Under the pieces are notes generated by a model. The model made no database searches, was not told the DNA's origin, and was given only the letters and a program-made list of their open reading frames with translations. From Candidatus Obscuribacter phosphatis (lineage in GTDB: Bacteria > Cyanobacteriota > Vampirovibrionia > Obscuribacterales > Obscuribacteraceae), in assembly GCA_001899315.1 (NCBI GenBank), contig MOYA01000001.1, positions 1,650,599 to 1,714,598 of the forward strand: a stretch of DNA of 64,000 nt. The letters are read 5' to 3'. A program made the translations under genes and the position numbers. Below, one piece after another: positions 34,293 through 60,079 of the stretch (positions are counted from its first letter, which is position 1; each line of letters starts with the position of its first letter).

Positions 34293-34883
34293 ATGCCCAG
34301 ATTGTCCGGTTCAAAAGAAATTCTGATGATAGTCGGCGATTTTGTCGAAGATCTGGAGGTGATGGTGCCCTACCAGATTTTGCTCATGCACGGACACAAG
34401 GTAAAGGCTGTATCGCCCGGAAAACGCAGCAAAGAGAAAGTAAAGACTGCCATACATGATTTTGAGGGTGATCAAACCTATACAGAAAAGCGGGGGCACG
34501 ACTTTATGCTTACTGCCGATTTTGAAAAAATAGACCTGGATAAAATGGATGCCCTGGTTCTGCCAGGTGGGCGGGCACCCGAATTTCTCAGGCTCGACCC
34601 AAAAGTTTTAACCATGGTCAAGCATTTCTTTCAGCACAAGAAGCCAGTGGCTGCTATTTGCCACGGTTTGCAGATTCTCACCGCGGCGAAAGTATTGGAC
34701 GGCTATTCGGCCACGGCTTATCCGACAGTCAAACCTGAAATAGAAAGTGCTGGAGGCACTTTTGTCGAAGTCAGTGTCGGTTTCGACAATAGCCATGTCT
34801 GTCAAAACCTAGTCAGTGCCCCAGCCTGGCCGGCGCACCCTGCTTTTATGAAAGACTTTCTGGAACTTCTAGAGACCCAGTAG
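34293..34883 (+). CDS. DJ-1/PfpI-family protein
   Basis: 196 aa of the class-I glutamine-amidotransferase-like fold. The nucleophile elbow ICHG carries the Cys, with the acidic partner in FVEDLE near the N-terminus. It could be a deglycase, chaperone or protease-like protein, as usual for the family. GAGGA precedes the ATG, but those bases also contain the start of the opposite gene, so there is no room for a separate promoter in between. Its end overlaps the convergent exonuclease-fold gene by 15 bases. Confidence 0.88.
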   Translation: MPRLSGSKEILMIVGDFVEDLEVMVPYQILLMHGHKVKAVSPGKRSKEKVKTAIHDFEGDQTYTEKRGHDFMLTADFEKIDLDKMDALVLPGGRAPEFLRLDPKVLTMVKHFFQHKKPVAAICHGLQILTAAKVLDGYSATAYPTVKPEIESAGGTFVEVSVGFDNSHVCQNLVSAPAWPAHPAFMKDFLELLETQ

Positions 34884-35591
34884 GTCTTTGATCTTATCTG
34901 CAGTTGAAAGCTTAGGTTTGTAAAACTGGCCGGTCCAGCCCAGATTGCCTGTTTCAGCCGTGTTTGTTTTCTGACTGGAGGAAGCCATTTTATAAAGAGT
35001 GTCAATCAAACCACGGCACTGTGCCACAGCTGAGATCCCTTTGCTCTTAAGGGGCTGCAGCTTATAGTTGGCGCCGCCGGCATCAATTTCACCGACAAAG
35101 CGTGCATACTGATCTTTCAGGCTGTGACCGGTAAAGACAAAGGGTGGCTGTCCATATTTGACGCAAAGTTCATCAAAGAGAACCTGCACAGCCGACATGT
35201 CCCAGACCAATAGCTGCTTTCCATCAATAAGCCGGGAAAGAGCATGGGCAACGTCGCTAAAGGGTCTGGCATTGAAAACTATGGCTTGGTCAAGACCGTG
35301 TTGAGCAACAATCTGATTAGGCACTATTTCTTCTGGCTTGACTAGTGACTCAAAAAGAGTTTTGCCATCGGGGGTAAGCACCGCCAAAGAAACGAGCATA
35401 GGTTGGTCTAGACCATCGCCAGCCCGGTCTGGATGAATATAAGTCACCTTGGTACCGAAAAGTAGAAAATCGCTCGAATCGATCAAATAACGGGCCCAGA
35501 CGATGGCCTGATTGCGATCAATTACATTGGGATGATTGGAAGAGCTACCATTTGTATCGTTCTTGCTATTAGCGCCTTTTGCCGATTGCAT
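34869..35591 (-). CDS. DnaQ-fold protein with catalytic residues lost
   Basis: 240 aa with the DEDD exonuclease fold but not its active site. The middle aligns with the family (ESLVKPEEIVPNQIVAQHGL, then SRLIDGKQLLVWDMS), yet the first motif reads FGTKVTYI where IDTETTGL is expected. The second motif lacks the N-x-x-F-D pattern, and the third lacks the His/Asp pair (KGISAVAQCRGLIDTL). An exonuclease is therefore unlikely, and a binding role is inferred. GGGGAAG precedes the ATG by four bases. The N-terminal 25 residues are Asn/Ser-rich. Confidence 0.6.
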   Translation of the reverse strand: MQSAKGANSKNDTNGSSSNHPNVIDRNQAIVWARYLIDSSDFLLFGTKVTYIHPDRAGDGLDQPMLVSLAVLTPDGKTLFESLVKPEEIVPNQIVAQHGLDQAIVFNARPFSDVAHALSRLIDGKQLLVWDMSAVQVLFDELCVKYGQPPFVFTGHSLKDQYARFVGEIDAGGANYKLQPLKSKGISAVAQCRGLIDTLYKMASSSQKTNTAETGNLGWTGQFYKPKLSTADKIKDLLGL

Positions 35592-35655: not shown

Positions 35656-38280
35656 TTACAATGCATCGGTGCTGTATATACTGCGAATTGTCTCTTTGTC
35701 CCTTTCAGAAGGCTTAAGTGCACAGGCTTTCCAGTACATTACGTCCAATCCGTTGGGTGAATGGGGCAAACCTAAACCATGCCCAAATTCATGGATAAAA
35801 AGGGTGTAAAGATGAATTCGGGCATAGTTTGACAGTTCTTTGTCCGAACCGTCATAACTTTGACAGAAGACCCGAATATGAATCTTCTTCAACTCTCTTG
35901 TATCTTCACCCTTTTTCTTGCCATAGACCGCACTGCTGCGTCCGGCTGAGCCGTATGGTATATCAGTATAGGTAGTCACTCTTTCCACAAAGATATCAGC
36001 CTCTTCGGCCTTATCTACATAAACAACTTTGATGGGCGAATCAGCAAAGTCGGTCCATTCTGAAACAGCCTGCAACATCATGCTGCGCAGTTTGCCGCCA
36101 AAACCGTTGCGACGATTGTCAGGCAGAAAGACTCGCAGCGGCAATCTTTCCTTTTTGAAGAAGCAAGAATAGACATGGTCGTTATAGTGGGGAGTACGCA
36201 AAAGATTGCGGGTACTGAGATTGTATTTGATATCCCAGATTGACCAAAGATAGGTATCGCGAGTGGTGGCGACCTTTTCACTCTTATAGGCCAGTCTAAA
36301 ATACTTCAATGCTTGTCTAAAGTCACTTTCAGCCTGGGCAAAACGACCGCTCAAATCATGGCACATAGCTCGAGACTGATACCACATAGCCTGCACATTA
36401 GCAGGGTCTTCAGGATAACGTTCAATCATCTTTGAATAGTAATGGGCAGCAGCCTCATGGTGCATAGCATTTTGCTGACCCCAAGCCATTTGCCAATACA
36501 AAGCCTGAATTTGACTTTCTTCGACTTTGTCGCAAAGATTTAGTCTGAGATCTAACATGAACTGGTCGACAGCTAAGGCTGTGTCATAGTATTTGCCATT
36601 GACACAAGCATCGGCAAGACCTTGCAGAGCGTTGAGAATCAACCTTTTGCGCGTCTCGCCGCTTTCTTTATATTTAGCCTTAAGTAAAGCAAAAGCCAAA
36701 GAAAGACTCTTTTCATCGACCTCATTGTGCTCATCCAAATTTACTTTTGCACCGCTTAAACTTTCCACAGTGCGCAGATAATGAGCCCGGGCATCCGCTG
36801 TAGTCCAAGCAGCAATATAAGTGCGGCCCAAAACTTCATCGGTATCATAAACAATACTGCTATCCGGCTCAGGGTTTGCCCGCCGCCGCAAGCCTAGACA
36901 ATGACTAAAGTAGAAGCTTGCCTCATCGAAGTGCTCGCTCCACATGGAATTTTCTGCCAGATCATAGAGAAGCATGGTTTGAATTGAGCAATTATCACCA
37001 AGATAACGATCGGCAAGAAGAAAGCAAAGTCGATATAGACGACCAGACTCTTCAGCGCGACCGTCTATTTTGTCGATATAGGCGATAGATGCCAGTCTAT
37101 GCAAGACTAGCCCTAGTTTTATCTTTTCTTGTTCAGTCAATACTTTTGGCAGGTAGTCTTTTCCTTGCTCTAAGTCGGTCTGACAAAATTGTCTCGTTTC
37201 AAACTTGGAGAAATTTCCCTTAACTTCGTTTTCACACTCTGGAAGGGTGAGAGAATGCAGCTCTCGCCACTGTTCTTCTAGGAACAGCCCCTTCAATTCG
37301 TCTGTAACGGGTCGCAACCACTTGTCGCTAAAATGGAGCGAATTAAAGGCTTTCTCTAGATACTGTGAGCGCATCTCTGGCTCTTCGACAGTCATTCTGA
37401 TCAGCTTCTGCAAACAAGCAAGGGCGTAAAAATGTCTATCTGGATAGGTATCTTCGTAGAGCGTCAGAGCTTGAACAAGTTTTGCTCCATCATCACCGCT
37501 ATCTAGATAGGCAAGCGCGCCCAGAATGCTCTTGTCATAAGATTTTAAATCGACCAGATCTGTCTCTAGATCTGGCTTCTGTTCTGGCGTATGCTCTGGC
37601 TTATGTTCTAGATTTGACTCTGGCTGATTGGAAGCGACAGTGCCTGCCTTAAGTCTAGCCACAAGCCTCTCTGTTAGTGGATGAAGAGTAAAAAAGGCCT
37701 TATTTGATTTACCGACCTCGTCTAGGGCCGAGGCAAGATAACCAGCTTGCTTGACTTTGCCGACTGCTATCAAAGAAAGCAAGCGACGCAGGAAAAGCAC
37801 TTCCCGGTCGAGCGGTCTGCTCTTAGCCAATTCTTCCTGCCAAGTAAAGAGCTTTAGATAAGCTTTCAGTATATTGACCTTAGTGGCGCCGACAAACTGC
37901 AGCTGATTTAAATACAAGTCTTCTTTGAGTGACTTATTATCAGGCAGATAGATTTCTAGCTCAGATTGCAGCTTAGATAGACTCTTTCTATAAATACTCG
38001 TGTTAGAAAGACTACTGTTGGAAACACTCTTGTCGCTTGGAGCAAGATAGAGCATGGTGAGCGCATCGACATAAACATGCAGCATTTCGCTTTCTTTGAT
38101 CGTACCTTCACCCCAGTCGCTGCGATCTTCATTCCAGACGGAAATGGGCTCTCTTTCACCATAGAGATAGTGGTCATAAGAAGCCACTGCCGGAGAAGGC
38201 ATCAAAAAAGCAGTAAGAAGAGAGGCAAAAAGAGAAAGTAGAAAAGAAATTGGAAAAGAAAAAGCCAAAGAAGAACTCAA
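35656..38280 (-). CDS. Secreted TPR-metzincin metalloprotease
   Basis: Long secreted protein ending in a matrixin-like catalytic domain. The zinc site HEFGHGLGLPH (HExxHxxGxxH; first His about 830 from a start at 38280) and the Met-turn DVMY are complete, close to the C-terminus. The middle (about 200-650) is helical TPR-like sequence. The N-terminus is a hydrophobic signal (LAFSFPISFLLSLFASLLTAF) ahead of VASYDHY. The start is uncertain: the open frame continues to 38832, but that part runs antisense through the HEAT-like gene at 38410. TTG at 38280 is my choice. No basic N-region or ribosome-binding site supports it, and no ATG lies between 38202 and 38454. Confidence 0.65.
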   Translation of the reverse strand: MSSSLAFSFPISFLLSLFASLLTAFLMPSPAVASYDHYLYGEREPISVWNEDRSDWGEGTIKESEMLHVYVDALTMLYLAPSDKSVSNSSLSNTSIYRKSLSKLQSELEIYLPDNKSLKEDLYLNQLQFVGATKVNILKAYLKLFTWQEELAKSRPLDREVLFLRRLLSLIAVGKVKQAGYLASALDEVGKSNKAFFTLHPLTERLVARLKAGTVASNQPESNLEHKPEHTPEQKPDLETDLVDLKSYDKSILGALAYLDSGDDGAKLVQALTLYEDTYPDRHFYALACLQKLIRMTVEEPEMRSQYLEKAFNSLHFSDKWLRPVTDELKGLFLEEQWRELHSLTLPECENEVKGNFSKFETRQFCQTDLEQGKDYLPKVLTEQEKIKLGLVLHRLASIAYIDKIDGRAEESGRLYRLCFLLADRYLGDNCSIQTMLLYDLAENSMWSEHFDEASFYFSHCLGLRRRANPEPDSSIVYDTDEVLGRTYIAAWTTADARAHYLRTVESLSGAKVNLDEHNEVDEKSLSLAFALLKAKYKESGETRKRLILNALQGLADACVNGKYYDTALAVDQFMLDLRLNLCDKVEESQIQALYWQMAWGQQNAMHHEAAAHYYSKMIERYPEDPANVQAMWYQSRAMCHDLSGRFAQAESDFRQALKYFRLAYKSEKVATTRDTYLWSIWDIKYNLSTRNLLRTPHYNDHVYSCFFKKERLPLRVFLPDNRRNGFGGKLRSMMLQAVSEWTDFADSPIKVVYVDKAEEADIFVERVTTYTDIPYGSAGRSSAVYGKKKGEDTRELKKIHIRVFCQSYDGSDKELSNYARIHLYTLFIHEFGHGLGLPHSPNGLDVMYWKACALKPSERDKETIRSIYSTDAL

Positions 38281-38409
38281 AGAAGAAGCGGCAAAGTCAG
38301 CGGCTGAGAAGAAATCTCGCCTCTGGCGGCGCCAGTCACCCTGTTTCGCTATGCCGGTAAACTGGCATAACCTAGAGAAAGCACTTTTGTTTGGAATTGG
38401 AGAATTTTC

Positions 38410-38775
38410 TTGAGCTTGAACGACTTTGAAAATCAATTGGCAGGGCTTTTGCATTCGGTCGGCACGGCTACCCGCGGTGTATTCGGTGCCATAGACAAAA
38501 TGCTGTTTCAAGCTGTGATCAATGGTCTCAAAAGCGAGGACTTTGAAGCCGCCTCTATTTCGATAGACCAGCTTGCTAAAGAGAAAAAAACAATTTCCAT
38601 AGCACCTCTTTATCTTGTCTATAAATCTCATCCTAACCAGAGAGTGCGAGTCAAGGCCGGCGAAGCACTGAAAGCTTTTGGCCAAGACGAAAAAATCAGA
38701 GAATTGACCGAAGGAAAAGAGATAAAAGAAGCCATGAAAAGTCTTATCGAAGAGTTTGGCAACTTCAAAAGCTAA
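38410..38775 (+). CDS. Small HEAT-like helical protein
   Basis: 121 aa, beginning at a TTG with GGAG six bases upstream. The sequence is alpha-helical with a HEAT-like pair (YLVYKSHPNQRVRVKAGEALKAFGQDEKI) and an acidic/basic end (LTEGKEIKEAMKSLIEEFG). It is divergent from the metzincin gene and convergent with the calpain-like gene. No specific function. The start and the helical repeats are visible in sequence. Binding is inferred. Confidence 0.55.
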   Translation: MSLNDFENQLAGLLHSVGTATRGVFGAIDKMLFQAVINGLKSEDFEAASISIDQLAKEKKTISIAPLYLVYKSHPNQRVRVKAGEALKAFGQDEKIRELTEGKEIKEAMKSLIEEFGNFKS

Positions 38776-38816
38776 TTGGACATCTTTTCGGCATGGTCCT
38801 GTCATTATTTTCAAGG

Positions 38817-40520
38817 TCAAAATTTGCGCCATGGATTGGTATGGACGCCACCAATATTTGAATTCTGGGAATTCTGTGTTTTCTTGGCGTTTGGTGACTC
38901 GGCTTTGCCAGACTGCGGCGCTTCAAAGAAAAGCAGGCGAAAGGCTTTTGCAAAGGCTTCTGCCGTCAATTCAAGATCCAGACCAGCCACTTGTTCGTAG
39001 ATACTATTGATTTCAACAATGCCTCGATGCGGCTGCACCGACAAAACTGGATAGGGTCTGGGAGGCGGGCCTTTACCGGTATCGTCATGTGTGACGGCTA
39101 GAACAACCAAATTCTCACTGTTTAGAGTCAAAAGCTTTTCAAAGAGAGCAGCCGGCTCAAAATCAGCCACCACAAAATAAGAACTGGATGACATCGCTAA
39201 CGTCTCAATTGCCTGACAGGCTCGGCGAGCGACAAGAGAACGAGGCTTGCCGCTACCGGCAGTACTAAGCACGCTATTGAGAGGGCTTATCTTAGCTACA
39301 TAAATTCCGTATGCTTTCTCGAGCAGAGGGTACCAAAAGCCAAATTTATCAGTCATCCCATAACAATTCAGCTCTTCCGGGCGAGGGGGCATGACATCAA
39401 AAGGAGGGCGTCTTGAGCCGGGAAAACAAATTGAATAGGAACCATCAAGATTAATGCGAATCATGCGCAAAATAGCGCGAGGATTAAGACGAGCCAAAGA
39501 GCATACAGCGGCGGCGAAATAAGAATCACCGACGGGCGATAGCTTTACCGCATCTGCATTGATAGAGGTGAGCGGCAGATCGAGATTGGCGTAAAGCAGC
39601 CGCTTGGGTGAGGGCGTTTTGAAATATGAAAGCGGCGGAGTGTGCGGGGGAGCTTGCAGTTGACTAAAGGGCGCTTCTGGAGGTTCTTTGGTCTGAGCCT
39701 CTACAGGGACTTGTAATTGAGATTGTGAAAGAGCTTGGGGAGGCTCTTGGGTTCGAGCCTCAGGAGAAACAGGCTGGGCAGTATTCGGGCCAGCGGCAAT
39801 ATCTAGATTAACTGGACTGATTGGACTAGAGGCGCTGTTGTCTAGTACGTTCAAATCAATATGGTTTGTAGCAGCGCTGGACTCTTCGGGTCTGGTACCG
39901 TGGTCGGCAGGCTCGCGCCTGGTGCTGTATAAAGCCAAACGAAAGTCTTCAAAACTCAGAGCCGCCAGAGCATCTTTAGAGACAAGCCCCTGGACAAGCC
40001 GCTCATTCAAGACAGTTTCAGTGACTTGTAAGACCGACCGAACCAGCTCTTTTTCTGAGGCGCTTAAATCTTCAAGTTCGAGCACCTTGTTCATTTCATC
40101 AAGATCGACCAAAGAGTTGAAGTCGAGGTCGACCAGAGAAAAGACTCGCGAAAGCGACGACTCCAACTCTAGAGCCGCCATAGTATCGTAACGAATCACT
40201 ATGCTTGAGAAACGCTTATCTTCAATCAGGCGTAATGCCACAAGCTCTCTTTGGCGAGGAGAAGTGCGAATGTCCCGGTCGCTGAGACTATTTTTTTCAA
40301 TCCAATAGGGCTCACTGCGCTGATGTTCGACTTCAGCAACAGCGAGCACCGACTCAATTGTATCTTTCTCAAAGTCGGATTTTGACTCGGTCTGCTTGAA
40401 CCAATCAGGCAGACCAAATTCATAGTCCAGAGGCAAGGAAGTGTCGAAATTGTACTGGTAACCGCTGGCGGTGCCGGTGGCGACATCTTCCTGATCTGAT
40501 TTGCGCTTTTCGTCGGTCAA
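38817..40520 (-). CDS. Degenerate calpain-like protein with EF-hand
   Basis: 567 aa, starting at TTG 40520 with GAGGA five bases upstream. Residues 131-142 fit an EF-hand loop (Asp131, Asp133, Asn135, Glu142). Residues 205-310 are a Pro/Gln/Glu/Ser-rich linker. The C-terminal 330-530 resembles the calpain (C2) core: GDSYFAAAVCSLARLNP in place of GDCWFLAALASLA, then DGSYSICF, FWYPLLEKAYG and, at the His/Asn positions, YPVLSV and EINSIYE. The nucleophile Cys is Ser333, and neither the HAY nor the NPWG motif is present, so proteolysis is unlikely. No signal peptide is seen, so it is probably cytoplasmic. Confidence 0.6.
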   Translation of the reverse strand: MTDEKRKSDQEDVATGTASGYQYNFDTSLPLDYEFGLPDWFKQTESKSDFEKDTIESVLAVAEVEHQRSEPYWIEKNSLSDRDIRTSPRQRELVALRLIEDKRFSSIVIRYDTMAALELESSLSRVFSLVDLDFNSLVDLDEMNKVLELEDLSASEKELVRSVLQVTETVLNERLVQGLVSKDALAALSFEDFRLALYSTRREPADHGTRPEESSAATNHIDLNVLDNSASSPISPVNLDIAAGPNTAQPVSPEARTQEPPQALSQSQLQVPVEAQTKEPPEAPFSQLQAPPHTPPLSYFKTPSPKRLLYANLDLPLTSINADAVKLSPVGDSYFAAAVCSLARLNPRAILRMIRINLDGSYSICFPGSRRPPFDVMPPRPEELNCYGMTDKFGFWYPLLEKAYGIYVAKISPLNSVLSTAGSGKPRSLVARRACQAIETLAMSSSSYFVVADFEPAALFEKLLTLNSENLVVLAVTHDDTGKGPPPRPYPVLSVQPHRGIVEINSIYEQVAGLDLELTAEAFAKAFRLLFFEAPQSGKAESPNAKKTQNSQNSNIGGVHTNPWRKF

Positions 40521-41421: not shown

Positions 41422-43146
41422 TTAATAAAAGGGACCCAAGCTGGCGCCAATGCCCGAAATACGATTCAGTTCGGTACAAAGAACCCTTAGCCGATCGAAA
41501 TCTGAGATATCCAGACCACTCCAAGGATTAGCCCCCTTAAGCAATTGAGAATCGGGGACTTCTAGCAAGACTTTTCCTGGAGGCAGCTTGAGCGATGCCG
41601 CCTCCACCAGGGTCTCTCCCTGGCTAATCTTTATTAACCGATCTTGACCATTTTCATTGAAATAGATTTGGCTGTTCAAAAGCCGACTCAACAGCTTGCT
41701 CTGTCTATAAAGCCTGGCGCACCCAGTCAACATGCCCTCGATCATCTCAGCAATCTGCTCGGCATCCATCACTTCCTCTTCTAAATCTTCATCTTCTAAA
41801 TCTTTTGAGAGGTCTTCTTGCTCTAGATTTTCTTGCTCTAAAAATTTTTCTCCATCTTGAATGCTTTCAAGGCTCTGAGATGGGTCGGCAAGCGAATCTA
41901 TTCTAGACGCCGCAGAATTAACCAAGGCAACTCTAGCCTCGGCACGCACGGCATTGAGATGGGCACGGTAGAAGGAAAGCCCGAGAGCAAGCAATTGCCT
42001 AGGCGAAAGGTTTTCAATGTCTAGGCCGTTGGTCTCAAGAAATAAAGCCACGCCATCTTTGATAACTGAAAGTTCGGCCAAATTGAAAAAGATTGATTCT
42101 TCAAAGGCGGCATTTCTAAAGGCATCGGCAAGCTCAAGAAAGGGAGTGAGAGCATCTGAGACGAAGGGTCCTAGATAGAACTCTTCTGACTGAACCAGAC
42201 TATATGCTGAAAAATCTCGATCATAAAACCGCAGCTCACGATAGCGACTGCGTAGTTGCCTGTTGTATGGAGGATCTAAGCGCTTAATCTCGTCGGTTTC
42301 GAGCAAAGCAGCTTCTAAAGGCGTTGCCACCACCTGAAATTGGAAGTCGTGAATCTGGCTAATCAACTCTTTTATTTTGCCGGACTTGCCTTTGCGACCC
42401 GTGAAGTAACTTTTGACTCTGTCCTTAAGCCGGGTGGCTTTGCCGACATACAAAACCTTACCTTGTTTGGAAATCATGCGATAAATGCCCGGCTTAGGGG
42501 GCAATTCTTTCAACTTGAGACGCTCAAGAGGTAAGTTGTAGGCACTGCTCTTTTCCTTTACAGCCTTGGGTAGGGGCGCTGAGAGAAATTGCAGCAATTG
42601 CTCCAGGTCACTGATGCCGGCTTCACTTTCCAGACGCTCGATTAGCTCTCGCCAGATAAAAGCTGTTGCTTGTACATGGGAAGCGCTGCGCTTTTCTTCC
42701 TCAATAGACTGCCCCAGATAACCACAAACAGCACGAATAGCTCGTGAAGGCAAATCAGGAAAGAGTCTCTTAGCGATCTGGCAAGTGCATATAAGCTCGA
42801 AAGGCAACCTGGACGGCTTGAAGAAATCGACCAGAAAACCTCTCTCAAACTGAGCATAATGAGCAACGGCAAACTTGATTTCAGGCTGCTTTAGTTGCGC
42901 TTTGAGGCGATTCAGCAACTTCTTTCGACTCAAGGCTGCCTGCATATCATCTTTTGTAATGCCGGTGAGCCGAGAAATACGCTCGGGTAGATCTTCATCT
43001 AGTTCAAGTAAGTGACTCTCAGGCGGACCAAGTATTTCAGCGCCTCTGACAAGCTGATAGCCAAGCTCGAGAATTTGACCATATTGCGGACTGGCGCCGG
43101 TGGTCTGACAATCGATGATTAGGACTGGTAATTCCTTTAGTTTCAG
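41422..43146 (-). CDS. DnaQ-like/GIY-YIG nuclease fusion
   Basis: 575 aa from a CTG start at 43146, directly behind the helicase stop (TAGGGGG then GCTGGTCTG). An ATG start at 42945 would cut off the first exonuclease motif. Residues 8-20 (VLIIDCQTTGASP) match the DEDDh motif I, but the metal-binding Glu is Gln (Q14). Motif II is HYAQFERG. Motif III (KRSASHVQATAF) lacks His/Asp, so this domain looks inactive. The GIY-YIG domain (residues about 218-300) is intact: GIY, YVG, Arg239, Glu283 and Asn295 are in place, as in UvrC/Cho. The rest is a Glu/Asp-rich insert and a helical end. Cho-like DNA-repair endonuclease activity is inferred. Confidence 0.75.
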   Translation of the reverse strand: MKLKELPVLIIDCQTTGASPQYGQILELGYQLVRGAEILGPPESHLLELDEDLPERISRLTGITKDDMQAALSRKKLLNRLKAQLKQPEIKFAVAHYAQFERGFLVDFFKPSRLPFELICTCQIAKRLFPDLPSRAIRAVCGYLGQSIEEEKRSASHVQATAFIWRELIERLESEAGISDLEQLLQFLSAPLPKAVKEKSSAYNLPLERLKLKELPPKPGIYRMISKQGKVLYVGKATRLKDRVKSYFTGRKGKSGKIKELISQIHDFQFQVVATPLEAALLETDEIKRLDPPYNRQLRSRYRELRFYDRDFSAYSLVQSEEFYLGPFVSDALTPFLELADAFRNAAFEESIFFNLAELSVIKDGVALFLETNGLDIENLSPRQLLALGLSFYRAHLNAVRAEARVALVNSAASRIDSLADPSQSLESIQDGEKFLEQENLEQEDLSKDLEDEDLEEEVMDAEQIAEMIEGMLTGCARLYRQSKLLSRLLNSQIYFNENGQDRLIKISQGETLVEAASLKLPPGKVLLEVPDSQLLKGANPWSGLDISDFDRLRVLCTELNRISGIGASLGPFY

Positions 43147-43155
43147 ACCAGCCCC

Positions 43156-46023
43156 CTAAGCGTCTTTCTCAAATGAGGACCAGAAACAATCGATATCTTT
43201 TACCAAACTGTTGGACACCAGATTATTCACCGAGCCACCATGCCAATCGGCAGGCATCGCCGCCAAATAGGTCCCCTCGGTGAAGCGTTTATCCATCAAA
43301 ACAATCAGCCCTCTGTCCGTGCCTGAGCGTATTACACGACCGGCAGCTTGAATAACTTTAGCCATAGCCGGATAGACATAGGCATAGTCGAAACCCTGAC
43401 CATATTGTTTTTCGTAATAATTGCGAATCTGCTCTCTTTCGAAATTAAAGTTTGGCAGACCCGGTCCGACAATAAGAGCACCGATGAGCATATCGCCAGG
43501 ATAGTCCACCCCCTCAGCGAAAACGCCCCCCTGCACGGCGAAAACAATTGTCGGCAGTCCCTGATTGAGACTTTCAATAACTTCTTTGGCGCGAGCTTTA
43601 GATATCTCGCTTTCCTGCTTCAGTAAGCGAAATTCACTGTTTTCATAGAGCTTGCTGGTGCGCTTATACACTTCCTCAAGGAAGGCGAAGCTGGGAAAGA
43701 AAACAAAGTAGTTTCCAATTTTGCGCGAAGTCAGTCGCAGAATTGCTTCTGCAATCTTCTCATAGTTCCGCTCTCGATCAGAGAACTTAGTAGAAACCTG
43801 AGGAATTACCAGAATTTTGCGATTCTCTTTAGGAAATGGGCTGAAATACTCGCGGCAGGAATAGCCCTCATCAAAACCACACAGTTTTCCAAAATATTCA
43901 AATGGCTTGATGGTGGCAGAAAATGCCACCACATGCGCAAATTCTTTATGCGCTAGCCTCAATCTATCGGAGGCATCGCAGCATACAACTTTCAAACACT
44001 CGTCATAACTCTCGCCAAAGTCTTTCTTACCATAAGCTCTGTTTTTTGTATAAAGATGCAGATAAGCCTCACCCTCATACGATAAAGCTTCTTGAAAGTC
44101 GCTCAGATAATTAGCCAATAGAATGATCGGATCTTGTATCTTGCGAAGCGAAGCTGCCGGCGAAGAGTTTGAATTTATCGAAGGGTTTGGATTTATCGAA
44201 GAATTTGGATTTATAGAAAGGCTTGGATTTATAGAAGAATTTGGGAGAATTTCCGGCTGCGTGGAATTTAATGGCGACATTGCTTCAAAGAGAGGCAACG
44301 AATTTATAGGAGCCAATGCAGCCAGCAGAGGCAACTGAGAAGCAGACTGAGATGCAAAAGTGGCAGCAGCGCCAGAAGAGGCAGCAGTTGCAGACCTAGA
44401 AGATGCGCTAGACGCGACAGATTCGTTAGATGAGTTGGATGCGTTAGATGAGTTGGAAGCGTTAGATGAGTTGGATGCGTTAGATGAGTTGGATGCGTTA
44501 GATGAGTTGGAAGATCCAGAAACTTTTGATGAACTGGAAAGACTTAGCGATTGCATCTGAGTGGAGATTGCATTGCCTTTACCTTTCATTCTCTCAAGCA
44601 TCAGCGCAGTCAGCTCAGTCCTAATCTTGTCGAATAGCTGCGGACTGATAGTAACCTTTGCTTCTTTCTTGCCGGCTACTTTTCCAACGCTCGAAATTGC
44701 AAACAAAGTTTCAGACAGAAGACTGCGCAGCTTAATCTGCTCGGTTACATTGAGAGAACTCAAATCACCAACGGACTCGACTATATGCGCCGATGAAAGT
44801 CCTTTGCTGAAATAATCACAGGCCCGTCCGGGCAAATTATGTGCTTCATCGATTACCAGATTGGGCTTTTGGTAGTCTTTAGAAAGACTATGAGTGAACC
44901 GACCAAGCGTATTCCTCGGCGAAAAAACATAGTTATAGTCGCCGATAACAAGATCAGCATTTTCGATGCTATCAAGAGACAATTCAAAAGGACAAACCTC
45001 ATACTTCTCACCCAACTTCTTGAATATCTCTTCAGACAAATTGACTCTTTGAGCCAATTTCGCAGTCTTCTCAAGCAGTTTTTCTCTATCGACTTTATCG
45101 TAGTAATCTCTTGCGTAATGACAATAGCTAGGATTGCAAATCACCTCTTCCTTAAGGCACATGCGAGCCTTGGCATTCAAAGTCAGCGATTTGATTTTGG
45201 TGCCATTCTTCCTAAGATGAGAGACGGCATCTTCGGCGGTGGCATGCTGCGAGTTCTTAGGCGTTACATAGATCAACCTTTGTCCCCGAGCCAAGGCTTC
45301 CTTAAGAGTCGGAAAAATTATGGCGGCTGTTTTGCCAAGCCCAGTGGGAGCCTGCACTAAACACTGATGAGAATGCTCAAGGTCATGACCCAAATCCTCA
45401 ATTAACTCTCGCTGTCCTGGTCGTGGATTTGGAAAGGGAAAGGACATACCAGCAGACAGAGACTCACGCCGACTGCGATTAGCCAATTCGTTTTCGACTG
45501 CCTGTTCTAGTTCAGCCAATCTCCGCGCGAGCCATTCTTCATACTCAACAAGGTCAAAGTTCACCAAAATTTCTTGTAGGTTTTCACCGGCAGTTCCGAC
45601 CACAAGAAAGCGCGTGGCTGGAATAACCTGTCTCTCTAGATAAACTATGTACGCGTACGTGGCGAGTTGCAAGCGATACGGATGACTGGAGTCACCCAGT
45701 CGAGCGATGAGATCAAGCGGATTCATGGCGCTCTTGATTTCTTCGATTAAGGGAATAGTTCCGTCCACGAAACCATCGGCACGTCCCGATACATTGAAAG
45801 TGAAGCGCTTACCTTCAAATTTATGGGCAAGCCTGTATTCGATTTTGTAAGTACCAAATTCTTTCTGTCGCTGTTTTTGAAGGCGGCTATGCCAGTCTCT
45901 GCCTTCAGCTGCAATCTTCTCGGCGCCACCGAAAATCTGGGCATACCCAGAGTTAGCCTCAATGCTTCCAGTCAAGGGAGACGGCAGGGCGAAATCTCTA
46001 ATCGAAATTGAAACTGATGACAA
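43156..46023 (-). CDS. PD-(D/E)XK nuclease-XPD/DinG helicase fusion
   Basis: 955 aa. Residues 1-190 hold a RecB/Cas4-like nuclease domain: GRADGFVDG (Asp83), EEIKS (Glu95, Lys97) and RLQLATYAY (Gln119). An XPD/DinG-type helicase follows. Walker A is PTGLGKT at 226-232, four Cys (289, 296, 301, 344) fit a 4Fe-4S cluster as in XPD, and the Walker B box is DEAH (392-395). Residues about 488-634 are a low-complexity insert (SNASNSS, SINPNS) in the helicase core. The C-terminal motifs (AAGRVIRS) are intact. Stop and next gene are coupled. A DNA-repair or defence role is inferred. Confidence 0.85.
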   Translation of the reverse strand: MSSVSISIRDFALPSPLTGSIEANSGYAQIFGGAEKIAAEGRDWHSRLQKQRQKEFGTYKIEYRLAHKFEGKRFTFNVSGRADGFVDGTIPLIEEIKSAMNPLDLIARLGDSSHPYRLQLATYAYIVYLERQVIPATRFLVVGTAGENLQEILVNFDLVEYEEWLARRLAELEQAVENELANRSRRESLSAGMSFPFPNPRPGQRELIEDLGHDLEHSHQCLVQAPTGLGKTAAIIFPTLKEALARGQRLIYVTPKNSQHATAEDAVSHLRKNGTKIKSLTLNAKARMCLKEEVICNPSYCHYARDYYDKVDREKLLEKTAKLAQRVNLSEEIFKKLGEKYEVCPFELSLDSIENADLVIGDYNYVFSPRNTLGRFTHSLSKDYQKPNLVIDEAHNLPGRACDYFSKGLSSAHIVESVGDLSSLNVTEQIKLRSLLSETLFAISSVGKVAGKKEAKVTISPQLFDKIRTELTALMLERMKGKGNAISTQMQSLSLSSSSKVSGSSNSSNASNSSNASNSSNASNSSNASNSSNESVASSASSRSATAASSGAAATFASQSASQLPLLAALAPINSLPLFEAMSPLNSTQPEILPNSSINPSLSINPNSSINPNPSINSNSSPAASLRKIQDPIILLANYLSDFQEALSYEGEAYLHLYTKNRAYGKKDFGESYDECLKVVCCDASDRLRLAHKEFAHVVAFSATIKPFEYFGKLCGFDEGYSCREYFSPFPKENRKILVIPQVSTKFSDRERNYEKIAEAILRLTSRKIGNYFVFFPSFAFLEEVYKRTSKLYENSEFRLLKQESEISKARAKEVIESLNQGLPTIVFAVQGGVFAEGVDYPGDMLIGALIVGPGLPNFNFEREQIRNYYEKQYGQGFDYAYVYPAMAKVIQAAGRVIRSGTDRGLIVLMDKRFTEGTYLAAMPADWHGGSVNNLVSNSLVKDIDCFWSSFEKDA
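44162..44245. repeat. 18-bp tandem repeat in the helicase gene
   Basis: About 4.6 copies of an 18-bp unit resembling gaagaatttggatttata. Because 18 is a multiple of three the frame is kept, and on the minus strand the copies encode repeats of the SINPNS type. Copies differ by one to four bases. Confidence 0.85.
44425..44514. repeat. 18-bp tandem repeat in the helicase gene (second)
   Basis: Five near-identical copies of gttagatgagttggatgc. On the minus strand they encode NASNSS-type repeats inside the helicase. Two copies have one different base (ggaagc for ggatgc). They are recent, and slippage would change the copy number without shifting the frame. Confidence 0.9.
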
Positions 46024-50370: not shown

Positions 50371-52107
50371 ATGAGATTTTTGCAGTCCACTAGATTTATC
50401 AATATGGTGATCTTTGCTGGTCTAGTCAGTCTCAACAGCAACAGCGCAGCGTCTGCTGCAGATAATACAAACATGGCGAATCCTGCGAGTGGAGTCGAGT
50501 GGACCAAGATTCAGGATCTCAATCCGAATGCCACAGCTACAAATAGACCAATTAGGCAGAAATGGGCTGTGGTCATAGGTGCGGCAAAATTCAAAGAGAG
50601 CCGGCTCAATGGCATGGACTCGAAAATGGATATTGCCGCAAGAAACTTCGCTGCCTGCCTGAAGGATCCAAATGCAGGACGCTTTCCAGAGTCTCACGTC
50701 AAAACCCTGATAAATAGCGACGCTACACGTCAAAACATCTTGAACAATCTCGGCAAAGGCTGGCTGGGCAGCTTGGCTGGTCCGGACGACTTGGTTGTAG
50801 TCTTCATCAGCACCCATGGTTTTCCAACCACTGAGGGTAGCACCTATCTGAGCGCCTACGACTGTGCATTGGACAACGTCTATTCAACTTGCATCTCGAT
50901 GCAAAATCTGATGGATACCCTAAAGCAAGAGGTAAAAACAGATCGCATTGTGATGATATTGGAAGCGCCTTACAGCGGTGCCGCCGAGTTAACAGCAGGG
51001 GCCAAAGCACTTTTCAAAGGTAAAGCGATTGACACCGATAAAGTAGTGCTAGGAAAAGGCTACATAATAATGTCTTCGAGCAGACCAGACCAGATGACTT
51101 GGGGCAACTCATTTTCCAATAATCTAATAGCGGCGATGAAAGCGAACAATGGTCTCAATAATCTACAGCAGGTTTTTGCCGATGCTCAGGCAAGAACTGA
51201 GAATGACACTGCTACCGGTAATCCTTCGCAGCGAAAACAAACCCCCGTGCTCAAGAGCCAATGGCAAGGCAATGACCTTGTATTGGGTGCGCCAACTTTA
51301 GGCGAAGTGAAAGAGATTCCGGATAACGTTATGAACTATGTTGCAGCCGAGTCTCATTATTTGAAGGCAAATAACTTTGTGAGCCAGGGAAATTTTGACG
51401 AGGCGTTGAAAGAGTATGAAGCGGCAGCAACAGTCGAGCCTACCTATGCAGACGCAATTGGAGACTGGGGTGCGGTGCTTGCTATCAAGGGCGATTGGAC
51501 CGGCGCCATTCAAAAGTATAAGCGCGCCATAGAGCTAAAACCAAACGACGCACTATTCAGAGCAAATTATGCAAGAGCCCTTATGAAGTCAGGGCAGGAA
51601 GAAGAAAGCATTAAACAACTTGAACTCGCTTATCAGCTCAATCCAAAGGACAAAGTAATTTTATCGGCGCTAGCAGGCAAATGTATTGAAGCCGGCAACT
51701 TCGAGAATGCAATCACTCTGCTCGAGCAAGGAGCTTTTTTGTTTCCAAATTCTGCTCAACTGCACGACAAGCTCAGCTACGTTTTTGCAAAAGCTGGCAA
51801 CTTGAATCAATCAATAGCACACGCCAGAGAAGCAATCAAGCTCGATCCCAAACTAGTTTCCGCAAAAATGAATCTGGGTTCGGCATTGCTCACGAAAGGA
51901 AACGTAGAAGAAGCCAAAGAAGTCTATCAAGAGACTGCCGCACTTGAGCCCAATAACCCTGATGCCCACTACTTGCTGGCTACGACATTCGAAAAACTTG
52001 GGGACAAAACAGCAGCGAAACAAGAACTTACAACGTTTCTTGGACTAGCAAGAGAAAATGATCCGCGCCTACCCAAAGTAAAGGAAAAGCTCGAAACTCT
52101 CAGATAG
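50371..52107 (+). CDS. Secreted caspase-fold/TPR protein without catalytic Cys
   Basis: 578 aa with a signal peptide (MRFLQSTRFINMVIFAGLVS, cleavage after SAA). A caspase (C14) fold spans about 60-300: WAVVIGAAKF, then VVVFISTHG with His149, then the segment that should hold the catalytic Cys as LDACHSG but reads LEAPYSG, so Cys is replaced by Pro200. The C-terminal half has about six TPRs (ALKEYEAAATVEP to KEVYQETAALEPNN). Peptidase activity is unlikely, so binding is inferred. GAGG precedes the ATG. It follows the hydrolase-DUF4384 gene by 29 bases. Confidence 0.75.
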   Translation: MRFLQSTRFINMVIFAGLVSLNSNSAASAADNTNMANPASGVEWTKIQDLNPNATATNRPIRQKWAVVIGAAKFKESRLNGMDSKMDIAARNFAACLKDPNAGRFPESHVKTLINSDATRQNILNNLGKGWLGSLAGPDDLVVVFISTHGFPTTEGSTYLSAYDCALDNVYSTCISMQNLMDTLKQEVKTDRIVMILEAPYSGAAELTAGAKALFKGKAIDTDKVVLGKGYIIMSSSRPDQMTWGNSFSNNLIAAMKANNGLNNLQQVFADAQARTENDTATGNPSQRKQTPVLKSQWQGNDLVLGAPTLGEVKEIPDNVMNYVAAESHYLKANNFVSQGNFDEALKEYEAAATVEPTYADAIGDWGAVLAIKGDWTGAIQKYKRAIELKPNDALFRANYARALMKSGQEEESIKQLELAYQLNPKDKVILSALAGKCIEAGNFENAITLLEQGAFLFPNSAQLHDKLSYVFAKAGNLNQSIAHAREAIKLDPKLVSAKMNLGSALLTKGNVEEAKEVYQETAALEPNNPDAHYLLATTFEKLGDKTAAKQELTTFLGLARENDPRLPKVKEKLETLR

Positions 52108-52234: not shown

Positions 52235-53746
52235 CTAGCAAAAAATCGGGACAGACACCATAAGCGGTGAAACGAAACGAGTGATGCACTCTGCTTCCGG
52301 CTTGCCATTGACAAGACAGGCCTCGAAAACTCTTCTGAATTCGTAGTCGTCTAGCAATTCCGTTGAACACCACTCTTGCTCGACTGTGTTAGAGCGATCA
52401 GCTCGAGACCTTAGATGTTGCTTGTAATTTGGCTCTTCTTGTAAGGCGCCGGTCAACTTATTCAGCTGCAAGTATAGCGCCAAATATTTTCGACTAAGTC
52501 CAGAGAAAAGCCGCCGAATATTGCATTTGATATTCTCACTGAGTTGCTGAATGAGCCCTCCTTGTTCGCCCTCAGGTGAACAAATAGAACATCCATGATT
52601 AGAACACTGAAACCATTCGTAGAATGTTTCGCCTTCTTCAGACCCAGAAAGACTCTTTGATGCATCTGCCGCTCTTGCTCGCCCTTGTCTAGCATTTTTG
52701 TCTTGCTGGTTGAAATTGTGGCTGCCATTTGTTGAATGACTTTCGCTACAAAGACCGACAAAACCGCCGGCGAATGAACGAACAAATCCAAAAATCTCTA
52801 ACTCAGATAATTCAGCCAGAACCTCACTGGCTTCAGCTGCCAAAATCTCAATAAGTGAGTCAACTGTTCTTGGGGACTGTCGCAATAGGTCCATTAGTCT
52901 GTCTTTCAGGCTCGACGTACCAGCATCAATCATGATACCAATATCAGATGAGGAATCAGATGAATTACCATCTGCAGCGCGATCAGAAAGAGTATTGACG
53001 CCAATTCTTGATAAATTTGATGAAGCTGGCGAAGCCGATGGCAGTGCGGATGAAAAGGAATCTGAATTTATCGATAACGATGAATCAAAGGCACTGCAGT
53101 TGTTTGCTTGCCAGTCCGCTGCCGCTGCGTCACGGCATTCGCTGGTAGATTCTGAATCCTTAGGATGAGAAAAAGAGCTTAGATAGTCCAGATACTCTTG
53201 CCGTTCCTCCATACTGGGATGTGACTTTCGAACCGAGCAAACGCTTCGTTTAACGAACAGATCGACAAAGTGACTAGAGCCAACCTTCGGACCCGCACTA
53301 GACCAGACATTCTTTAGAACATGCAAAACATTCCAGTAAATCTCTAATGCGGTTGACTGTGATACGCCCACAATGAAACTAAACCACCTAGAGCTTACTA
53401 TCGCCCCTCTTCCAAAGAACCAAAATGCTGCGTACCAAGCCCTTAAATTGCTTACCCCTTCAAAGAAAGTACCGGTTGACACCCAATTGATAGCACCACA
53501 AGCCGAGCAAGAATACCGCCTCAAGTCCGAGCACAATTGATTTTTCGCGGATTGGCAAGACCGACAGGTCAAAGAGTTCGACTCATTGAGTGCAATATAA
53601 AGATCCTTGCGGCAAGATGCTTCATCTCTGAATTTGCAACAAAACGATGACCACGCTTCTTTAGCTCTCGCTCTTTCAGCAAAAGATTTGCGCTTATACA
53701 GGTCTATGCTCAGCAGAACTCGCAAATTATCGTGTTCGGGAAACAT
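52235..53746 (-). CDS. Domesticated transposase-like zinc-ribbon protein
   Basis: 503 aa. Residues 61-83 are a zinc ribbon (CRSC and CSAC), followed by TGTFFEGVSNLRAWYAAFWFF and a helix-turn-helix-like GVSQSTALEIYWNVL. This is the N-terminus of IS1595/ISXO2-type transposases, but no DDE nuclease follows. Residues about 281-332 form a DprA-type winged helix (LLRQSPRTVDSLIEIL, LSELEIFGFVRSFAGGFVGL). Cys clusters (CSNHGCSIC, 381-389) come next. It is not an ordinary transposase. A DNA-binding regulator is inferred. The last codons run into a repeat-like segment (GGTGTCTGTCCC on the minus strand). Confidence 0.6.
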   Translation of the reverse strand: MFPEHDNLRVLLSIDLYKRKSFAERARAKEAWSSFCCKFRDEASCRKDLYIALNESNSLTCRSCQSAKNQLCSDLRRYSCSACGAINWVSTGTFFEGVSNLRAWYAAFWFFGRGAIVSSRWFSFIVGVSQSTALEIYWNVLHVLKNVWSSAGPKVGSSHFVDLFVKRSVCSVRKSHPSMEERQEYLDYLSSFSHPKDSESTSECRDAAAADWQANNCSAFDSSLSINSDSFSSALPSASPASSNLSRIGVNTLSDRAADGNSSDSSSDIGIMIDAGTSSLKDRLMDLLRQSPRTVDSLIEILAAEASEVLAELSELEIFGFVRSFAGGFVGLCSESHSTNGSHNFNQQDKNARQGRARAADASKSLSGSEEGETFYEWFQCSNHGCSICSPEGEQGGLIQQLSENIKCNIRRLFSGLSRKYLALYLQLNKLTGALQEEPNYKQHLRSRADRSNTVEQEWCSTELLDDYEFRRVFEACLVNGKPEAECITRFVSPLMVSVPIFC

Positions 53747-59343: not shown

Positions 59344-60079
59344 GCCAGTCGACCATGGTATTTCCCGCAAAGATTAGCTGAAAAAAATTTGACATTGCCT
59401 TAAGCTGGCTTTACCTTCAATTGTATAGAAATCTAAAGGAAACCTATATATAGCTCTCTGCCCTGCGACGAGCAGTTCGAGAGTACTGCTAACTAATTGG
59501 CTGGTCCCCAAAGACACAACCAAATCAGTGAGCATGGCTAGTTTACGGTCAAAAATTCGCGCGACAGAATTTGTTTCGCTGATTGCACCGCCCCCATCCC
59601 CAGACCAATATTTAAACCAGCATGGTACCGAGCCTAGCTCGTTATCAGTACAAAGACAGGTGCCGCCAATGGAAGAAATTATTTGCATTTGCTCTATTCC
59701 GGTAATCTACGCCATGTCATTTGGACTAGGACGAATAGTCGACAATGTACTTGAAACTCGCTGGCCGACAGACTTCTAACCGAAAGGCGCCGGGAAACAC
59801 TTTAAGAGACGAAGGAAACAACAGACAGGCTCAGCCGGTCTGACGAGCTCGGTGCGGGCACTGTCTGACAAGCTCGGTGCTGACACGGGCTGACAAGCTC
59901 GGTGCTGACACGGGCTGACAAGCTCGGTGCTGACACGGGCTGACAAGCTCGGTGCTGACATGGGTTGACCAGCTCTGAATCAACGACACCAGATCAAACC
60001 AGGTCGAAAGGTCGTACCAGTTGAAAACAACGGCAGCGGCACTTGCCTAAGCGGTCAATTCTTCTATGTCTCTGTGTCA
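59344..60079. other. Repeat-bearing gap between fadJ-like gene and oxidoreductase
   Basis: 736 bases without a convincing gene. Open frames of 104 aa (minus, 59374-59688) and 83 aa (plus, 59528-59779) overlap each other and have no ribosome-binding site. The second half holds a 25-bp repeat (listed separately). Near 60031-60060 a segment (GGCACTTGCCTAAGCGGTCAA) resembles the 35-bp repeat at 52.1 kb. Confidence 0.6.
59840..59964. repeat. 25-bp tandem repeat, five copies
   Basis: Copies start at 59840 (degenerate), 59865, 59890, 59915 and 59940 and read ctgacaagctcggtgctgac followed by acggg. The three middle copies are identical. The 25-base period is not a multiple of three, so it does not look like a coding repeat. 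The heptamer GCTGACA occurs twice per unit. A weak sixth half copy follows to 59980. Confidence 0.9.

Follow-up and report, generated by a model that had tools for sequence, protein, structure and literature searches.

The bacterial DinG-like proteins include a subgroup named EndoDinG, whose representative is a protein of Bdellovibrio bacteriovorus HD100 with endonuclease/helicase activity stated as unpublished data (PMC11981726). The text of that review makes no mention of a GIY-YIG partner of EndoDinG (the term 'GIY' is absent from it); it does describe pExoDinG, a pseudo-exonuclease domain fused to a DinG helicase, which sets a precedent for an inactive domain of this fold in the company of such a motor. 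GIY-YIG proteins of the Cho+Exo and Cho-like+Exo kinds have also been described (PMC1564403; NCBIfam PRK07883 group). We have found two genes of these already known kinds, an EndoDinG and a DnaQ-GIY-YIG protein, side by side in a stretch of 64,000 nucleotides (the window, to which all coordinates refer). Matching contig records carry Candidatus Obscuribacterales/Melainabacteria in their titles. The literature searched, with subscription journals excluded, yielded no description of the pair, of the one-way dependence within it or of an exonuclease site lost throughout the paired lineage.

Gene 1 (43156..46023, minus strand; TTG start) encodes a predicted protein of 955 aa in which a PD-(D/E)XK nuclease is joined to an Fe-S helicase of the XPD/DinG family. 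Judged from its sequence, gene 1 is a member of the published EndoDinG subgroup: it has an N-terminal PD-(D/E)XK site (H-E-D-E-K), an Fe-S domain of the CCCC type, and the SF2 motors of XPD and DinG. The motor domains were recognized by Pfam (Helicase_C_2, 1.7e-40; DEAD_2, 8e-12; both above the cut-off), the helicase motifs are invariant, and the four Fe-S cysteines (C289, C296, C301 and C344; 44992..45159, minus strand) are invariant in 19 orthologues, in keeping with the Fe-S XPD/DinG-type helicase that an earlier note on this DNA had recognized. PDB matches include XPD and the Finegoldia magna DinG structure 9kqh, to which the profile match is full-length (8.7e-143). The N-terminal 195 residues (45439..46023, minus strand), assigned as a Cas4/RecE-like PD-(D/E)XK domain, carry no Pfam name and have only a weak Cas4 match in NCBIfam (1.8e-3). 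The AlphaFold model of residues 1-200 has a pLDDT of 90 and resembles RecE, a Cas4-family protein, EXO5, MGME1 and AddAB, with 9kqh as the top match. H45, E62, D83, E95 and K97 are invariant in 19/19 orthologues. The residues that the earlier note had proposed as the nuclease site, Asp83, Glu95, Lys97 and Gln119, align to the family and are invariant both in these 19 orthologues and across 44 homologues extending into Firmicutes, among which E62 is likewise invariant and H45 is present in at least 90%. Gene 1 differs from the described EndoDinG in a long Ser/Asn-rich, low-complexity insertion in the helicase (44384..44536, minus strand), coded by 9-base repeats, and its product is longer than its relatives (955 vs 864 aa in the closest and 790-890 aa in most).

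The helicase gene ends in TAG (43158-43156), which is followed by GGGGCTGGT and then, in the same frame, by a putative CTG start of gene 2 at 43146 (junction 43146..43158, minus strand). The nine-base spacing of the coupled genes noted earlier is thereby confirmed. The reading frame is open from the TAG onward, an AGGGGG that could be a ribosome-binding site lies a few bases upstream of the CTG, and no ATG, GTG or TTG occurs between the TAG and 42945, which leaves the CTG as the only plausible start. Since DnaQ motif I of gene 2 lies upstream of 42945, a standard gene caller would start 201 bases late and lose this motif. The CTG is present both in the window and in the nearest relative (genome G002, locus L062). 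The 25 codons from the CTG differ between the two by 9 synonymous and 0 non-synonymous changes, a pattern of sequence divergence which indicates that the stretch from the CTG onward is translated; one non-synonymous difference falls within the three intervening codons that follow the TAG. A start of gene 2 at the CTG, translationally coupled to the helicase, is thus the likeliest arrangement, although gene 2 may instead be made by readthrough of the TAG. In most relatives the two genes abut or overlap by a few bases and have ordinary starts, and because the genes of most relatives overlap out of frame, a fusion of helicase and gene 2 is not the rule.

Gene 2 (41422..43146, minus strand; 574 aa from the CTG) is predicted to encode a DnaQ-like pseudo-exonuclease, a GIY-YIG endonuclease and a C-terminal domain. 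Both named domains were found by Pfam (RNase_T, 9e-9; GIY-YIG, 1e-7), RNase_T in 34/36 and GIY-YIG in 36/36 gene 2 members. Of the four profile families suggested earlier for this locus, DEAD_2/Helicase_C_2, RNase_T and GIY-YIG were thus recovered, and the N-terminal nuclease of gene 1 went unnamed by Pfam. The closest named family of gene 2 is the PRK07883 group (NF005906), at 190 bits vs a curated cut-off of 495. Like the members of this group, the Cho+Exo proteins, gene 2 has a DnaQ-like fold at its N-terminus and a UvrC/Cho-type GIY-YIG domain after it; the match to NF005906 ends shortly past the latter, leaving the C-terminal part outside the family. It differs from them in having the DEDDh residues replaced in 36/36 members, in having no UVR motif, and in being tied genetically to a helicase.

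The DEDDh positions of the DnaQ-like (RNase_T) domain (residues 1-190; 42577..43146, minus strand) were set by alignment to the PolC exonuclease 2p1j. In motif I D12 is kept and the Glu is replaced by Q14, in motif II the Asp is replaced by E101, and in motif III the His and the Asp are replaced by K152 and H157, respectively. By the same alignment to 2p1j, motif III is not to be read as H...T: its catalytic Asp falls on His157 and its catalytic His on Lys152. In an alignment of 36 rows from three bacterial groups, D12, Q14, H96 and E101 are invariant (36/36), position 152 is K, N or Q, and position 157 is H in 31/36 rows and Q or N in the other 5, and never Asp. Eight DnaQ-GIY-YIG cousins unlinked to this helicase (from two Actinobacteria, a Bacteroidota, Cupriavidus, Acidithiobacillus, Legionella israelensis, Bacteriovorax and Pseudobacteriovorax) have D-E-D-H-D intact in 8/8, and the Bacteriovorax genome G298 contains both the intact and the degenerate kind. 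The locus thus offers a natural experiment in which the exonuclease centre is intact in the unlinked cousins and has been lost alike in the paired lineage, in three distant groups. By its aligned residues, the DnaQ-like domain of gene 2 is a conserved pseudo-exonuclease, a nuclease by fold only.

The degree of conservation could be read differently: D12, Q14, H96 and E101 in 36/36 rows and H157 in 31/36, across three groups, are too conserved for a relic, and a domain that is alive would have a re-modelled active site with D12, E101 and H157 as metal ligands and a new specificity. We consider such an active domain improbable. With Gln in place of Glu in DxE, a metal ligand required by known DEDDh enzymes is missing; the His that acts as general base and the Asp of motif III have been lost as well, and the proposed ligand at position 157 is variable (Q or N in 5 rows). 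The earlier description of a DnaQ-like plus GIY-YIG protein is borne out for both domains by fold and profile. Its count of three nuclease-type domains was overstated: with DEDDh replaced, the pair combines a helicase and two nucleases predicted to be active with a conserved pseudo-exonuclease.

Two loci of Pseudobacteriovorax were observed beside this family. L218 (353-2110, minus strand) is a mirror image of gene 2: its DnaQ residues are intact, and those of its GIY-YIG domain have been replaced (Y233 to F, R243 to E, N295 to K). L217 (1208-2797, plus strand; genome G308) encodes a gene 2-like protein of the degenerate type (motifs DCQ and HYAGFE), which is one of the 36 rows; no helicase lies in the 4 kb of sequence covered there, and the EndoDinG of G308 is at a separate locus, L118.

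The GIY-YIG domain (residues 211-301; 42244..42516, minus strand) is UvrC-type, with 47% identity to the N-terminus of Bacillus caldotenax UvrC (1yd6), and it keeps all catalytic residues; Y222, Y233, G235, K236, R243, E283 and N295 are invariant. Unlike UvrC, gene 2 encodes no UVR motif, no RNase H-like second nuclease and no HhH. The UvrB-binding UVR motif was detected in 0/36 gene 2 members by a scan that finds it, as a positive control, in the UvrC of the window's own genome, where a complete UvrC is encoded separately. The Cys-rich C4 element that follows GIY-YIG in UvrC/Cho is missing: past residue 211, no column that is invariant or close to it holds a cysteine. After an acidic, low-confidence linker, a C-terminal alpha/beta domain (residues 460-565; 41452..41769, minus strand) has no Pfam match. 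The gene 2 model also matches the Staphylococcus aureus DinG structures 9ii8 and 8zef. The pair resembles ExoDinG and pExoDinG in that a DnaQ-like domain, sometimes dead, works with a DinG helicase, and differs from them in that the pseudo-exonuclease resides in a separate GIY-YIG protein and the helicase carries PD-(D/E)XK instead.

In order to follow the distribution of the two genes, three genome samples were used: 60 relatives, 144 Bdellovibrionota and 93 Legionellaceae. Gene 2 is accompanied by gene 1 in each of the 38 genomes that carry it (38/38) and adjoins it in 37/38; it occurs in 0/238 genomes of the three samples that do not have gene 1 (Fisher p per sample 4.5e-13, 1.5e-11 and 3.4e-7, with kinship ignored). 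Among the 60 relatives (Obscuribacteraceae) the helicase is present in 21 and gene 2 in 17, always adjacent. The Bdellovibrionota have the helicase in 34 genomes and gene 2 in 17, all among those 34; it adjoins the helicase in 16/17 and lies on a separate contig in one (G408). In Legionellaceae the same four genomes carry both genes, adjacent in 4/4. Geobacterales and others have the helicase without the partner. Of the matches listed for 244 genomes of the phylum, those outside the family cover the GIY-YIG (UvrC-type) or the DnaQ part only. A second EndoDinG-type helicase, split into two adjacent open frames, was seen in one Legionella genome (G296:C8:431367-433743). The co-occurrence in 38/38, the count of 0/238 and the helicase-only genomes together mean that gene 2 depends on gene 1 and not the reverse.

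Gene order is the same in Obscuribacterales, Bdellovibrionota and Legionella, with the genes overlapping or abutting, and in distant Bdellovibrionota the pair alone is kept while the other neighbors differ. Pairwise identities of the two proteins are correlated (r = 0.91, to which shared ancestry contributes), and the helicase tree requires 5 changes in the state of the pair vs 21.5 in shuffles. Kept order, adjacency, dependence and correlated divergence together give good support to a single functional unit made up of both genes. The earlier note had already treated them as one unit, and the pair was not found apart in most relatives. A shared promoter as the sole link between two genes of unrelated function is very improbable; the helicase is often alone and G408 has the genes on different contigs, as such a reading would have it, but gene 2 is never found in a sampled genome without the helicase, and adjacency is kept in three distant groups in which the other neighbors change.

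We hypothesize, giving it about even chances, that the pair is a DNA-damage processing module. UvrB brings UvrC to lesions via the UVR motif, and for a gene 2 protein without this motif the neighboring XPD-family helicase may act as the loader and lesion sensor that is otherwise missing. The Fe-S helicase would load on a single strand or fork, translocate, and stall at a lesion, as XPD does. The gene 2 protein would then be brought in, either by the helicase or at the 3' single/double-strand junction that the helicase opens, with the pseudo-exonuclease as a binding or positioning domain in place of UvrB; in its simplest role, the dead DnaQ fold would bind 3' ends, junctions or the helicase. 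The GIY-YIG domain would nick the damaged strand, the PD-(D/E)XK domain would trim or cut the unwound strand, and the gap might be left for (often translesion) synthesis. The physical complex, the type of lesion, the order and polarity of the cuts and the role of the dead domain are in this scheme what we infer from the domains and their conservation. A more specific version, in which UvrAB-independent excision or crosslink repair proceeds in a eukaryote-like manner, an XPD-type helicase verifying the lesion and a GIY-YIG domain targeted by the pseudo-exonuclease making the incision, is possible, and we put it forward tentatively. The EndoDinG proteins are widespread, and a partner that was not seen without them, carries an incision domain and a dead exonuclease domain and lacks the UvrB-binding motif offers a concrete hypothesis for the pathway in which they act.

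The surroundings of the pair in Legionella bear on this proposal. On three plasmids, which are related and thus not independent observations and which carry other cargo too, the pair has umuD and a Y-family polymerase next to it in 3/3, with dinB, an SOS-response-associated peptidase (SRAP) and Ku near it in 2/3 each; DNA ligase D (LigD) and UdgX occur in 1/3 each. Homologues of Ku, dinB, umuC and umuD are also near the pair on a related L. saoudiensis contig. In Bdellovibrionota, Ada/AlkA is found near it in one genome and an AlkB-type oxygenase in another. The Legionella plasmid context thus favors repair. The presence of Ku and LigD there would also suit a different role, that of processing forks or recombination intermediates and not excision repair, in which the pair would cut stalled forks, flaps or interstrand crosslinks with an Slx1-like GIY-YIG domain. 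The fold relatives of EndoDinG that act at forks and ends, Dna2, AddAB and EXO5 (PMC11981726), point the same way, but the GIY-YIG domain is UvrC-type and not Slx1-like in sequence, as its identity to 1yd6 attests, and no Slx4-like partner was seen; we regard this role as unlikely. Some findings speak against the damage-processing module. No LexA/SOS boxes of known types were found upstream of the helicase in 36 loci scanned, and the window neighbors of the pair, a divergent dnaK (found in 12 family loci), an alpha/beta hydrolase, a caspase-like TPR protein and unknowns, are not repair genes. Helicase-only genomes are also common, which means that gene 1 can act without gene 2.

The earlier note had left open a role against foreign DNA, in which the module would unwind and shred incoming DNA. 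Two predicted nucleases with a helicase, a patchy distribution with plasmid carriage, and generic PADLOC matches to DinG and DEDDh profiles would all suit such a defence system. The neighborhood does not: the PADLOC scan of the window neighbors gave weak, generic matches only and no defence cluster, no cas operon profile was matched among 10 window neighbors, and no CRISPR array or spaced repeats were found there, so that proximity to known defence genes was not borne out. The absence of cas genes and of a CRISPR array beside gene 1 also sets it apart from CasDinG of Type IV-A CRISPR. In Bdellovibrionota the neighbors are ordinary chromosomal genes that differ by species, gene 2 has no relatives in viral contigs, phage records contain helicase relatives only, from Firmicutes-type material, and the plasmid context is one of repair and translesion synthesis. 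We consider defence a rather poor prospect, and of the two roles named earlier for the module, repair is favored and action against foreign DNA goes unsupported. The pair probably acts as one DNA-repair unit and not in anti-virus defence.

An Rfam scan gave nothing near the pair. Several other features of the window were observed. The caspase-like neighbor (50371-52107, plus strand) combines a Peptidase_C14 caspase domain with TPR; by eye, EAPYSG stands where the catalytic Cys motif DxCHSG would be expected, which makes a dead protease probable. It was found close to the pair in 12 loci of the family. A small protein 6 kb from the pair (34869-35591, minus strand; PADLOC DEDDh 1e-4, RNase_T 21 bits) is a second possible degenerate DnaQ-like gene and was found in 6 related loci. 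The protein at 38817-40520 (minus strand; 6 loci), without a Pfam match, has the calpain-like stretches GDSYFAAAV and FGFWYPLLEKAYG, and the catalytic Cys is absent by eye. A short ORF at 38371-38772 (plus strand), kept in 7 loci, shares its position with the N-terminal portion of the ORF at 35656-38832 (minus strand), which was called as 1058 aa and whose true start is probably downstream. A tandem array of 25-base repeats occupies 59829-59975, in a region with no long ORF, and a 503-aa protein (52235-53746, minus strand) has a DprA winged-helix domain as its sole Pfam match.
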